This document shows, one piece after another, positions 2,648 to 51,260 of a stretch of DNA of 64,000 nucleotides (position 1 is its first letter; the number at the start of each line of letters is the position of its first letter). The notes beneath the pieces were generated by a model that was not told where the DNA came from, made no database searches, and worked only from the letters and a program-made list of their open reading frames with translations. Source of the DNA: an uncultured Gellertiella sp. (GTDB lineage Bacteria > Pseudomonadota > Alphaproteobacteria > Rhizobiales > Rhizobiaceae); the NCBI RefSeq assembly GCF_963457605.1, contig NZ_OY735139.1:3812001-3876000 (forward strand), given 5' to 3'. A program made the position numbers and the translations under genes.

Positions 2648-3244
2648 GCTTGCCAGGTGCGGATGGGGCGGCGGGAGCGGCCCCAGAATCATTTTTCGAT
2701 CATATTGTTTTAAAGTATATCGTCAGCATTTATTGAACACTTAAAGCGTGTATGTGCTGCAATTGTCGATTTTATCCGATAGATATATTATTGTTATGAC
2801 CCATTGAGTGGTGATACCCGTCTCTCTCTTGCTTTGCAGGCGTGTTTTTCACGAAGAGGGCCACGAAAGTAGATGGGGCGATTCTGCAACATTAATGTGA
2901 GACGGTTTTGCTCCCGCGCGATCATCGGAGATATTGGCGTGCATAGTAAACTATGTATCTTCCTATTTCTTCCGTTGGTTGTCGCTCTGTATGTGAGCGA
3001 TATTCATGTAATTTTGACGAGAATCCATATAATGCGTAAAAACTAATGGATATGCATCTAAATAATGGGAAAATACTTTACTAATCTTATAACTGCTGCG
3101 GGAATCCACGAAAATCCCTATGGATGACCACAGTCAAAATTTAAGAATTTAACCATATACGCAGACTTTTGGAAAAATCCCTTAAGAAGTGGTTGATTTT
3201 CCGCCAGAATAGAGCGACTTTCTCACTATTGAACAAAAGACTTT

Positions 3245-47322: not shown

Positions 47323-47396
47323 GCGGGTATAGCTCAATGGTAGAGCAGCAGCCTTCCAAGCTGAATACGCGGGTTCGATTCCCGCTACCCGCTCCA
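47323..47396 (+). tRNA. tRNA-Gly(TCC), target of the inserted element
   Basis: 74 bases, complete cloverleaf: acceptor GCGGGTA / TACCCGC, anticodon loop CTTCCAA (TCC), T-arm GCGGGTTCGATTCCCGC, encoded CCA. The part from the anticodon loop to beyond the 3' end is repeated exactly at 49740-49793, so the gene was restored by the inserted DNA. Confidence 0.97.
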
Positions 47397-47403
47397 GTGA
47401 TTT
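47350..47403 (+). repeat. Left attachment repeat (attL) inside tRNA-Gly
   Basis: 54 bases identical to 49740-49793. It starts in the anticodon stem-loop and ends seven bases past the CCA, the usual crossover region of tyrosine recombinases that use tRNA genes. Confidence 0.92.
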
Positions 47404-47477
47404 AAAACGCGTACAGATTTTCAATGGCACTCGTGTGTCAGGGGAGGAACGCTTCCAACCTTTAGGTCTGGTGGGCA

Positions 47478-47672
47478 TTAGTCTTTCTGTTCCTTTGGTG
47501 GCCACGTGCCTTTTTCGACAAGCTTTTGTTCGATGTAAGGGTCAGGGTTGCGTCCTCTGAGTATTTCAGTTCTCCGCCATTCCTGCCATTGTGGCGCAAG
47601 CAGATGCGGCCATGGCAGAGGTCCATCCTGATCGATAATACCGTGGTCATCCCAATCCATGTCGCTAAGCAT
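47478..47672 (-). CDS. Small hypothetical protein inside the island
   Basis: 64 residues, acidic and rich in Trp and Pro (M-D-W-D-D-H-G-I-I-D, P-L-P-W-P-H-L-L-A-P-Q-W). No family, signal peptide or membrane segment. Divergent from the methyltransferase with 136 bases between starts. It lacks a helix-turn-helix, so it is not an R-M control protein of the usual kind. It could be a fragment of a longer gene; the frame stays open only about ten codons further upstream. Confidence 0.35.
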   Translation of the reverse strand: MLSDMDWDDHGIIDQDGPLPWPHLLAPQWQEWRRTEILRGRNPDPYIEQKLVEKGTWPPKEQKD

Positions 47673-47808
47673 ATAGGAAAATGCTCGTGCCTTCGATAGC
47701 CTCTAAACTTATTTAGATTTCAAATTGAGACGCTGCCCCAGCGGCAGACGCTATCTTCAGCCGGGGTAAGATGTTAAGCTTCTTGACAAGATATGGCTGG
47801 GAAAACGC

Positions 47809-48996
47809 ATGTCCACAAACTTTTCATTTTTCGAATTTTTTGCCGGGGGAGGTATGGTTCGCGCTGGATTGGGAAGCGCATGGCGCTGTGACTTTGCGAA
47901 CGACCTCGATGGTAAAAAGGGGCTCACTTACCAAGATAATTGGGGGACCTCTGGCGAGCTCTATGTTGGCGATATCCGCAACGTATGCCCCGCCGAACTT
48001 CCGGGCACCTCGGATTTAGCATGGGGTTCTTTCCCATGCCAAGACCTTTCCCTGGCCGGCGGCGGCGCTGGCCTTCAAGGCGAACGCTCGGGCACCTTCT
48101 ATCCGTTCTGGGACGTGATGCACGGTCTCATTAAGGATGGTCGCGGACCCAAAGTCATAGCCCTCGAAAACGTCTGTGGAACACTTACCTCCCACAGAGG
48201 TGAGGACTTCCGGGCGATCTGCGAAACCTTTGCACAAGCTGGATATCAGTACGGTGCTCTGGTGATCGACGCAGAACTTTTCCTGCCTCAATCGCGCCCG
48301 CGTCTATTCGTTATCGGCGTTCGCGGCGATGTTGAAATTGCTCCTGTGTTGGTATCGCCGGGGCCCACGATGCCTTTCCACACTCGCGGCCTTCGGAACG
48401 CGTATCTGCGGATAAGCGAGGAAGCTCGTGAGGAATGGCTTTGGTGGAATATCCCCCTTCCGCCGCTCCGTACGAAGACCTTTTCGGATATCATCGAAGA
48501 AAATCCATCTGATGTTGCTTGGCATACGAAGGACCAGACGGCACGGCTGCTTGCATCCATGTCACCAGTCAATCTGGCCAAAGTCGAAGCAGCGAAGCGC
48601 GCAGGGCGTCGCATCGTGGGCGGCGTCTACAAGCGAACAAGGCCAGAAATTGGCGGTCGTGTTGTTCGCGCCGAAGTTCGATTCGATGACATTTCCGGGT
48701 GCCTGAGAACCCCCAATGGCGGCTCTTCCCGCCAAACAATTCTTGTCGTTGAAGGCAATTGCGTTCGTTCCCGCTTGATATCCGCAAGGGAGACAGCTCG
48801 GCTGATGGGAATGGATGAAGGCTATAGGCTACCCAAGCGATACAATGAGGCATATCACCTGACAGGCGACGGCGTTGCCGTTCCGGTGGTGCGCTTTCTT
48901 GCGCATCACTTGTTCGAACCTATTGTATCTTCTCAGTCAGAGATTGTACCCCTTGCCGAAAATGATAACGAGGGAATCACGGTAAGTGGCGGTTGA
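47809..48996 (+). CDS. C5-cytosine-specific DNA methyltransferase
   Basis: 395 residues with the ordered C5-methyltransferase motifs: motif I F-E-F-F-A-G-G-G (8-15, AdoMet binding), motif IV G-S-F-P-C-Q-D with catalytic C77, motif VI E120-N-V, motif VIII Q161-S-R-P-R-L-F, a target-recognition region (about 180-300), and motifs IX and X (A-R-E-T-A-R-L-M-G; G-D-G-V-A-V-P-V). It methylates C5 of cytosine in a specific DNA site that cannot be read from the sequence. The next gene overlaps it by 11 bases, so it probably protects the host from that nuclease. Confidence 0.93.
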   Translation: MSTNFSFFEFFAGGGMVRAGLGSAWRCDFANDLDGKKGLTYQDNWGTSGELYVGDIRNVCPAELPGTSDLAWGSFPCQDLSLAGGGAGLQGERSGTFYPFWDVMHGLIKDGRGPKVIALENVCGTLTSHRGEDFRAICETFAQAGYQYGALVIDAELFLPQSRPRLFVIGVRGDVEIAPVLVSPGPTMPFHTRGLRNAYLRISEEAREEWLWWNIPLPPLRTKTFSDIIEENPSDVAWHTKDQTARLLASMSPVNLAKVEAAKRAGRRIVGGVYKRTRPEIGGRVVRAEVRFDDISGCLRTPNGGSSRQTILVVEGNCVRSRLISARETARLMGMDEGYRLPKRYNEAYHLTGDGVAVPVVRFLAHHLFEPIVSSQSEIVPLAENDNEGITVSGG

Positions 48997-49567
48997 TTTC
49001 AAATTCCGTAAAAACGCGGTTTCAAGCCTGACGAACGAGATCGGCGTGTATGTCCTGGCAGACTTGGACAATGTGCCGATCTATGTCGGCCAGTCGAAGG
49101 ACGGCATACGCTCTCGCGTTGCTCGTCATCAGACCTCGGCCCGCTCAGATATCATCGCCAACCGCCAGATTGATGTCTGGGAAATTGCCTATGTTTGGGC
49201 TTTTCCGGTTACTGATAAAGCCGAGATTGACGAGCTCGAGGCGGTTCTCTTCAATCACTACGACCCGAAATCGCAGCTGATGAACGGGGCATTGATACCG
49301 TGTAACCTAGCAGCTCTTCCACCGCTCCCAAAACCGACCGACATCGTCCAAGTGATGAGTAATGCGGAGATTGAAGATCGCAAGCAGCCTGAACAGCGGC
49401 TCCCGCGACAGGCGAGTCATTATGCTCAGCTTGTTGGTCATTTTCTAGCGGTGAAAAATTCGGCACAGATTGCAAGGGCAATGGATGCTCACTTCGATCG
49501 CCTTAAGAAGTACCATTATAGTCTCTTTGGTAGGGCGGACGCCTCTGCCGACGAAAAGGAAATGTGA
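48986..49567 (+). CDS. GIY-YIG nuclease, probable restriction endonuclease partner
   Basis: 193 residues from a GTG start inside the methyltransferase end. The GIY-YIG core is complete: G-V-Y (20-22), Y-V-G (33-35) in P-I-Y-V-G-Q-S, R44 with the R47-H48 pair, E85 in E-L-E-A-V-L-F-N-H-Y, and N100. These match the catalytic Tyr, Tyr, Arg, Glu and Asn of the family, of which R.Eco29kI and R.Hpy188I are type II restriction enzymes. The C-terminal 90 residues do not match a known domain. R-M function is inferred from the neighbour. Confidence 0.75.
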   Translation: MAVDFKFRKNAVSSLTNEIGVYVLADLDNVPIYVGQSKDGIRSRVARHQTSARSDIIANRQIDVWEIAYVWAFPVTDKAEIDELEAVLFNHYDPKSQLMNGALIPCNLAALPPLPKPTDIVQVMSNAEIEDRKQPEQRLPRQASHYAQLVGHFLAVKNSAQIARAMDAHFDRLKKYHYSLFGRADASADEKEM

Positions 49568-49963
49568 GAAAGCCGCCCTTGCTGGATTCCATCGTGAACT
49601 TCGGAGGAACTACGTGTATCAGAACGAGGAAATTGGAACGAGCCCCGCTTGCCGATTTCGGCAGGTAGGGCTATCTTGCGTTATGAACCCCGGCCTATTG
49701 CCAGTGAAACCGACCATTGAAGTATCTTCAGGTTCTCGGAGCCTTCCAAGCTGAATACGCGGGTTCGATTCCCGCTACCCGCTCCAGTGATTTCAATTTG
49801 TGTTTTTAGCAGCTTTTGCGTGGCTTTCCCATGGCCATGAGGTCGGTCCGCATCGGGCGGGCGGCAGGGATTAATTAAGTCTTGCGCATTGCGCGCGAAA
49901 GCCTTAAACGGCGGCACTAAACCGGTTCGCCGGGTCACCCTTACGTTCACAGGAAGCATTCAA
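49568..49963 (+). other. Right end of the island and tuf upstream region
   Basis: 170 bases after the GIY-YIG stop with no gene, then the right attachment repeat and about 170 bases of tuf leader. A possible promoter is CTTGCG (49881-49886), 16 bases, CTTAAA (49903-49908). A reading frame across the repeat on the minus strand is only the antisense of tRNA sequence. Confidence 0.45.
49740..49793 (+). repeat. Right attachment repeat (attR), 3' tRNA-Gly fragment
   Basis: 54 bases identical to 47350-47403 but without the 5' half of the tRNA, so no tRNA is made from here. Flanking bases differ on both sides. Confidence 0.92.
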
Positions 49964-51139
<1,176 letters not shown>

Positions 51140-51145
51140 TTCGAC

Positions 51146-51220
51146 GATTGTGATCATCGAGTAAATCGACGATTGTGATCATCGAGTAAATCGACGATTG
51201 TGATCATCGAGTAAATCGAC
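51146..51220 (+). repeat. Three 25-bp tandem repeats after tuf
   Basis: Three identical units of GATTGTGATCATCGAGTAAA + TCGAC (51146, 51171, 51196). A diverged 18-base copy at 51128-51145 includes the last codons and the stop of tuf, which suggests that the array grew by duplication of the gene end. It lies before the tuf terminator and is therefore transcribed. Confidence 0.9.
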
Positions 51221-51260
51221 GCAAAGTCAGAATGAGCAAGTCACTTGCTGGTGACTTTAA

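Follow-up and report, generated by a model that had tools for sequence, protein, structure and literature searches.

Cis-mobilizable elements (CIMEs) have been described, for example, from Streptococcus salivarius and S. agalactiae (PMC5704250, PMC7563491), and the classical CIMEs common in streptococci measure 1.2 to 13 kb (PMC7563491). In the sections of these sources cited here, CIMEs keep attL and attR around cargo alone, carry no genes for integration or transfer, and typically occupy the 3' ends of tRNA genes. Here we describe a small element, hereafter the islet, at positions 47404-49793 of a 64,000-nucleotide stretch of the genome of an uncultured Gellertiella sp. (contig NZ_OY735139.1, positions 3,812,001 to 3,876,000 of the forward strand; this whole stretch is the window, and all coordinates below refer to it). 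The islet would consist of two attachment sites around a two-gene type II-like restriction-modification (RM) cassette, and it is most likely a CIME-type element, a known kind with attL, attR, cargo, and no recombinase. We consider it probable that a tyrosine recombinase inserted this non-autonomous islet into tRNA-Gly(TCC), and that the enzyme belonged to the clade used at the same tRNA by prophage-like elements and larger islands of the Rhizobiaceae family.

The islet resembles a CIME in having both attachment sites (the right arm present, the left one weak) and no recombinase or transfer genes. However, CIMEs derive by definition from conjugative or mobilizable elements, whereas descent of the islet from an integrative and conjugative or integrative and mobilizable element is no more than possible; its presumed integrase clade also occurs on viral contigs of IMG/VR, and the islet stands alone rather than in tandem. 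A second comparison is offered by the Dehalococcoides islands at ssrA, which likewise share one RNA gene and of which, in the part of that report used here, some carry an integration module and 15 lack it and are suspected to have moved with their neighbors (PMC3146451). These islands differ in their site (tmRNA), their serine recombinase module, and their reductive dehalogenase cargo (PMC3146451).

The locus is framed by the following features:

47323..47396, + strand: tRNA-Gly(TCC), intact (ARAGORN), with its 3' portion serving as the left attachment core
47350..47403, + strand: attL, the left copy of the 54-bp attachment core (exact direct repeat)
49740..49793, + strand: attR, the right copy of the 54-bp core (exact direct repeat), an orphan tRNA 3' part in which ARAGORN finds no tRNA
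49964..51139, + strand: tuf, the first host gene past the element

The gene order in the window is tRNA-Tyr, tRNA-Gly(TCC), the element, the orphan tRNA-Gly 3' copy, and tuf. The second core copy begins at tRNA position 28 and starts 2.39 kb after the start of the first, the repeats enclose 2.34 kb between tRNA-Gly(TCC) and tuf, and the tuf ATG (49964) lies 177 nt past the second copy. The two cores agree at 54/54 bp, and the slightly longer segments 47350-47406 and 49740-49796 at 56/57 bp; the exact 54-bp match is far beyond chance. The genome assembly has only two contigs (4.17 Mb, 99.6% complete), so an effect of contig ends does not explain the repeat. The interior of the element has a G+C content of 53.2%, compared to 61.2% for the window.

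When the element is left out and its flanks are joined at the repeat, the resulting sequence aligns with congeners G002 and G004 as an uninterrupted site, and the 100 nt immediately upstream of the tuf ATG share 88 and 89 identities with them, respectively. This comparison could be read in two of the four congeners; the contig of G003 stops one base past the tRNA, and G001 gave no match. Across a wider survey of 104 fetched loci with a full tRNA-Gly gene, in which some genomes appear twice, tuf lies downstream in 49, at a gap of 113 to 1,409 nt (113 to 349 nt in 42 of the 49); in a further 46 tuf was out of reach, and the remaining 9 were cut off too soon. A preliminary description of this DNA had proposed a perfect 54-bp repeat whose first copy completes the tRNA and whose second is an orphan 3' fragment, left by a site-specific integration that separates tRNA-Gly from tuf, and had suggested aligning relatives as a check. 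The repeat and the ARAGORN calls confirm the observation, and integration is supported by the uninterrupted site in both readable congeners, by many other elements that share this repeat and this tRNA, and by the integrase-type right arm described below. The finding is real and was correctly read as a tRNA island, which is small, lacks a recombinase, and belongs to a known kind.

The weightiest point, missing from that description, is that there is no recombinase inside the island. No frame of the element matches an integrase among the Pfam families searched, and a profile built from 12 integrases of the clade finds no integrase remnant in any of its six frames. As a positive control, the same profile recovered the truncated integrase of a 2.2-kb module in genome G006 at 6e-52. 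As it stands, therefore, the island cannot have moved by an enzyme that it encodes itself.

Where a recombinase could have come from is indicated by the other occupants of this tRNA. Counting only genomes with two matches (the search pattern also matches intact tRNAs), we found two exact copies of the core in 14 of 394 genomes of the family, including this one. The spans measured, some of them between diverged copies, range from 2.2 to 75 kb. Exact copies are 45.3 kb apart in G085, 22.2 kb in G141, 55.8 kb in G151, 56.7 kb in G349, 51.8 kb in G321, 48.8 kb in G340, 42.4 kb in G228, 9.0 kb in G162, 2.30 kb in G370, and 54.8 kb in G165 (there between two orphan copies), and G006 has spans of 17.0 kb and 2.23 kb in tandem; diverged copies enclose 40.9 kb in G111 and 75.1 kb in G203. 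The 2.30-kb element of G370, a member of another genus (L274:823-3198, corresponding to G370:C1:1001322-1003698), also lacks an integrase; it carries a reverse transcriptase gene (PF00078, 3.7e-18), the upstream part of which may lie in another frame, and its arms differ from those of the clade studied here.

The family elements of 17 to 75 kb at tRNA-Gly carry one clade of tyrosine recombinase. In G006, for example, a 401-amino-acid member adjoins tRNA-Gly and reads toward it. Relatives of this enzyme at an E value of 1e-70 or better are present in 14 of 337 family genomes. All 12 integrases with at least 46% identity have a tRNA-Gly gene, TCC or CCC, or the 3' fragment of one at a distance of 54 to 83 nt; the other two genomes have relatives at 37%, a more distant subclade with two of its three copies beside tRNA-Arg(CCT) (L241, L243). 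Six viral contigs in IMG/VR, one of them the G006 island, carry the integrase, and all six also contain the core; the clade is therefore at home on prophage-like elements. Altogether, 43 IMG/VR stretches contain the core. Of these, 23 were scored as orphan copies, and the arm motif is found in 16 of the 23, with the best arm matching that of the window at 24 of 38 positions; the 23 include a variant intact tRNA (L322), the G006 island itself (L301), and several pairs from one contig.

The arms, that is, the end sequences next to the core, tie the islet to this clade. In integrase-bearing islands, CGT(G/T)TCAC occurs two or three times in the first 80 nt or so past the tRNA on the integrase side, and (G/T)TGA(C/A)AC lies on the other side, 35 to 37 nt before the core (the GTGACAC arm). 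The corresponding sequences in the islet are as follows:

49702..49739, + strand: right arm, containing GTGAAAC (49704-49710) at a distance of 36 nt from the core
47425..47441, + strand: weak candidate left arm site, TGGCACTCGTGTGTCAG, which resembles the GTGTCAC repeats of the integrase-bearing islands

Over its 38 nt, the right arm has a mean identity of 0.516 to the arms of ten clade islands, which share 0.44 to 0.60 among themselves, and it ends in TTCTCGG before the core, like several of them. The reference set leaves out the decayed arm G006b and a repeated copy from G165, and the right ends of G221 and G243 were not located. By comparison, identities at 3,000 random positions in the window averaged 0.293 and peaked at 0.439, none reaching 0.516, and five tRNA-Gly islands without a clade integrase (G162, G370, G315, G141, and G027) gave 0.28 to 0.33. 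None of the 12 integrases matches these control islands, of which G141, G315, and G027 were covered in parts only. Among the plasmid matches listed for the right end, coverage is confined to the tRNA part. The islet thus shows a core at the 3' half of tRNA-Gly together with the right-end arm sequence expected of a product of the clade. The link to the clade that most likely placed it is unusually clear.

Several observations weigh against this attribution. The 9-nt motif of the right arm on its own scores 6/9, compared to 5/9 in all five controls; it is matched or exceeded by 0.05% of 9-mers in the window. The short motif is thus less telling, and the case for the right arm rests on the 38-nt comparison. 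The left arm is weak, a single degenerate site whose score of 6.0 compares to 4.8 for an empty site (G004) and is reached by 4.1% of random stretches; its summed local similarity to 11 arms is 94, against a maximum of 86 in 300 random stretches. The genome that bears the islet has no relative of the clade integrase, although it has 11 other matches to PF00589. Finally, the RM cassette is not known from any integrase-bearing tRNA-Gly island, and we found no larger relative with both this cassette and a clade integrase.

The cargo comprises the only two recognizable genes of the element and one open frame of uncertain standing:

47809..48996, + strand: C5-cytosine DNA methyltransferase, 395 amino acids (PF00145, 1.2e-40; TIGR00675, 9.2e-38; PADLOC DruM, 2.7e-161, and MTase_II, 1.3e-106)
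48986..49567, + strand: GIY-YIG nuclease, 193 amino acids, a probable restriction enzyme (PF01541, 1.1e-8)
47478..47672, - strand: 64-amino-acid open frame, standing uncertain, with no database match

The nuclease starts with a GTG that overlaps the 3' end of the methyltransferase gene. Its residues G20, Y22, Y33, G35, R44, H48, E85, and N100 are kept at 97% or more in an alignment of 59 proteins, from which 7 of 65 loci (L062, L084, L088, L091, L092, L097, and L108) were excluded because a stop or partial codon interrupts the matched stretch. In a Foldseek search, the structural model (pLDDT 81.5) has its best match in a UvrC GIY-YIG domain at an E value of 0.002. With a methyltransferase whose family match is intact beside a nuclease with its catalytic residues, we take the pair, from its sequence, to be a compact type II-like RM system that is predicted to cut DNA. 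The 64-amino-acid frame has no homologue in Pfam, NCBIfam, PADLOC, PHROGs, plasmids, or phages, and only weak, chance-like matches to the fetched loci.

A known GIY-YIG restriction system for comparison is Eco29kI, whose active-site set of Y49, Y76, R104, H108, E142, and N154 is backed by mutagenesis in the portion of the report cited (PMC1952068). The nuclease of the islet shares the residue types Y, Y, R, H, E, and N, the R-H spacing of four, and the position beside a cytosine methyltransferase (PMC1952068). However, a phmmer search of the PDB gave only UvrC, at an E value of 0.054, and Eco29kI is not among the best 50 structural matches, which Foldseek heads with UvrC domains and none of which reaches an E value of 0.001 or better. 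We therefore do not place the nuclease in the Eco29kI family, because neither sequence nor close structural similarity supports it.

A scan of named genomes returned 65 related loci. A methyltransferase relative is present in 63 of the 65 nuclease loci, within about 0.9 kb in 61 of them and in four gene arrangements, and the two loci without one lie at contig ends. Together with the Pfam matches, this pairing upholds the earlier suggestion that the recognizable cargo is a two-gene modification and restriction system. The closest relative found, at 84% identity for the nuclease and 85% for the DNA over both genes, comes from an Ensifer contig of 20.6 kb that also bears a gene for a ParA-like ATPase.

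In Burkholderia phage AH2, an RM operon beside an integrase combines a methyltransferase with a GIY-YIG nuclease 62.5% identical to that of the islet; unlike the islet, it is phage-borne and has four genes, including a 285-amino-acid protein and Vsr. Locus L078, from a betaproteobacterial assembly, holds the same gene pair between 45-bp tRNA-Lys-derived repeats, but it spans 5.6 kb and encodes an integrase of its own along with a Rep_trans initiator and Vsr, and it looks like an autonomous counterpart of the islet. In a Pseudomonas locus (L057, 3483-10664), the pair lies with PAAR, CHAP, and NERD between 23-bp tRNA-Met repeats 7.2 kb apart, with no integrase among the five frames searched. The pair also occurs downstream of tRNA-Leu(CAG) in 5 of the 65 loci, several of them from Rhizobiaceae (L047, L049, and L050, also L045 and L048), at about 0.3 kb or less in three; we did not count these as further tRNA islands, no second tRNA piece being found in any of the five. 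In 12 Rhodobacteraceae loci (L085-L101 and L107), the pair has a conserved chromosomal place beside an ispG-like gene; the two genes can thus be settled residents of a chromosome as well. A Vsr-type gene is close to the pair in 19 of the 65 loci, and the window has none. The gene for the 285-amino-acid protein, of uncertain function, accompanies the pair in 7 of the 65 loci (L055, L058, L070, L087, and L052-L054) as well as in phage AH2 (L286); it is absent from the window, and the one copy searched, from L055, has no Pfam match.

Under the reading that we prefer, a member of the clade would have performed the recombination, and a crossover in the repeated 3' half would have kept the tRNA intact and left the orphan copy before tuf. 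The integrase may then have disappeared together with the remainder of a larger element, or may have gone with a tandem neighbor. The latter is conceivable because tandem arrays exist at tRNA-Gly: at G006:C20 (L109:6218-8493, L110), a 17-kb integrase-bearing island is followed by a 2.2-kb module with a truncated integrase, showing that accretion occurs at this site. We favor such a remnant of deletion or departure over entry in trans because the left arm is weak and no second copy of the islet was found. The lack of an integrase remnant and the identity of an orphan copy free of constraint point mildly the other way, to a young insertion. The cassette may persist by restricting phages or by punishing its own loss, and the islet would move again only if a member of the clade entered the cell.

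The alternative that survives best holds that the islet is a hitchhiker, which prophages or islands visiting tRNA-Gly continue to move in trans, its small, integrase-less form being the normal state rather than decay. Both ends are present, the two cores do not differ even though the orphan is under no tRNA constraint, no integrase remnant is found, and the 2.30-kb reverse transcriptase element of G370 is a second integrase-less element in the same tRNA. We nevertheless judge this unlikely. No second copy of the islet was found: close relatives of the nuclease occur in only 3 other genomes of 394, none of them at tRNA-Gly with repeats. The left arm (47404-47810) has no match beyond the core among the family-genome matches listed, nor in phages or plasmids, and the arms of the G370 element are different. 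In a generalized form, tRNA-Gly(TCC) would host a class of roughly 2.3-kb integrase-less defense islets moved in trans by prophage integrases, an idea we regard as doubtful. It is with the same doubt that we entertain one compact defense module per islet, RM here and the reverse transcriptase gene in G370. If it were true, defense cassettes would be hitchhiking on the recombinases of the very phages against which they act.

We consider it very unlikely that the RM unit inserted itself with a long target duplication and met the tRNA by chance. Insertion of this kind has reportedly been proposed by Kobayashi's group for some RM units, and that pattern would be matched by an RM unit that has long direct repeats on either side and whose relatives show an empty allele. 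However, such an insertion would involve no recombinase recognition sequences, whereas here the repeat is the tRNA 3' half that also serves other elements, starting likewise near tRNA position 28, and the right end carries the arm of an integrase clade. A tandem duplication or an old homologous recombination between tRNA-Gly copies around an ancestral cassette would account for the direct repeat alone, and is scarcely credible given the empty site in two congeners, an interior G+C content 8 points lower, and a closest relative on the Ensifer contig with the ParA-like ATPase gene.

Insertion by a member of the tRNA-Gly clade thus remains our preferred reading, and in it the end sequence of a minimal RM islet links the islet to one particular recombinase clade. 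We do not claim that such an islet is unreported. The link by end sequence makes the movement of recombinase-free defense genes directly testable with one integrase and two short ends. The combination of clade, tRNA, and arm motif also provides a search tool for further recombinase-free islets at tRNA-Gly. Beyond the element, at the 3' end of tuf (51128-51221), a 25-bp unit (ATCGAGTAA) occurs three times in tandem, each copy repeating the last codons and the stop region of the gene.

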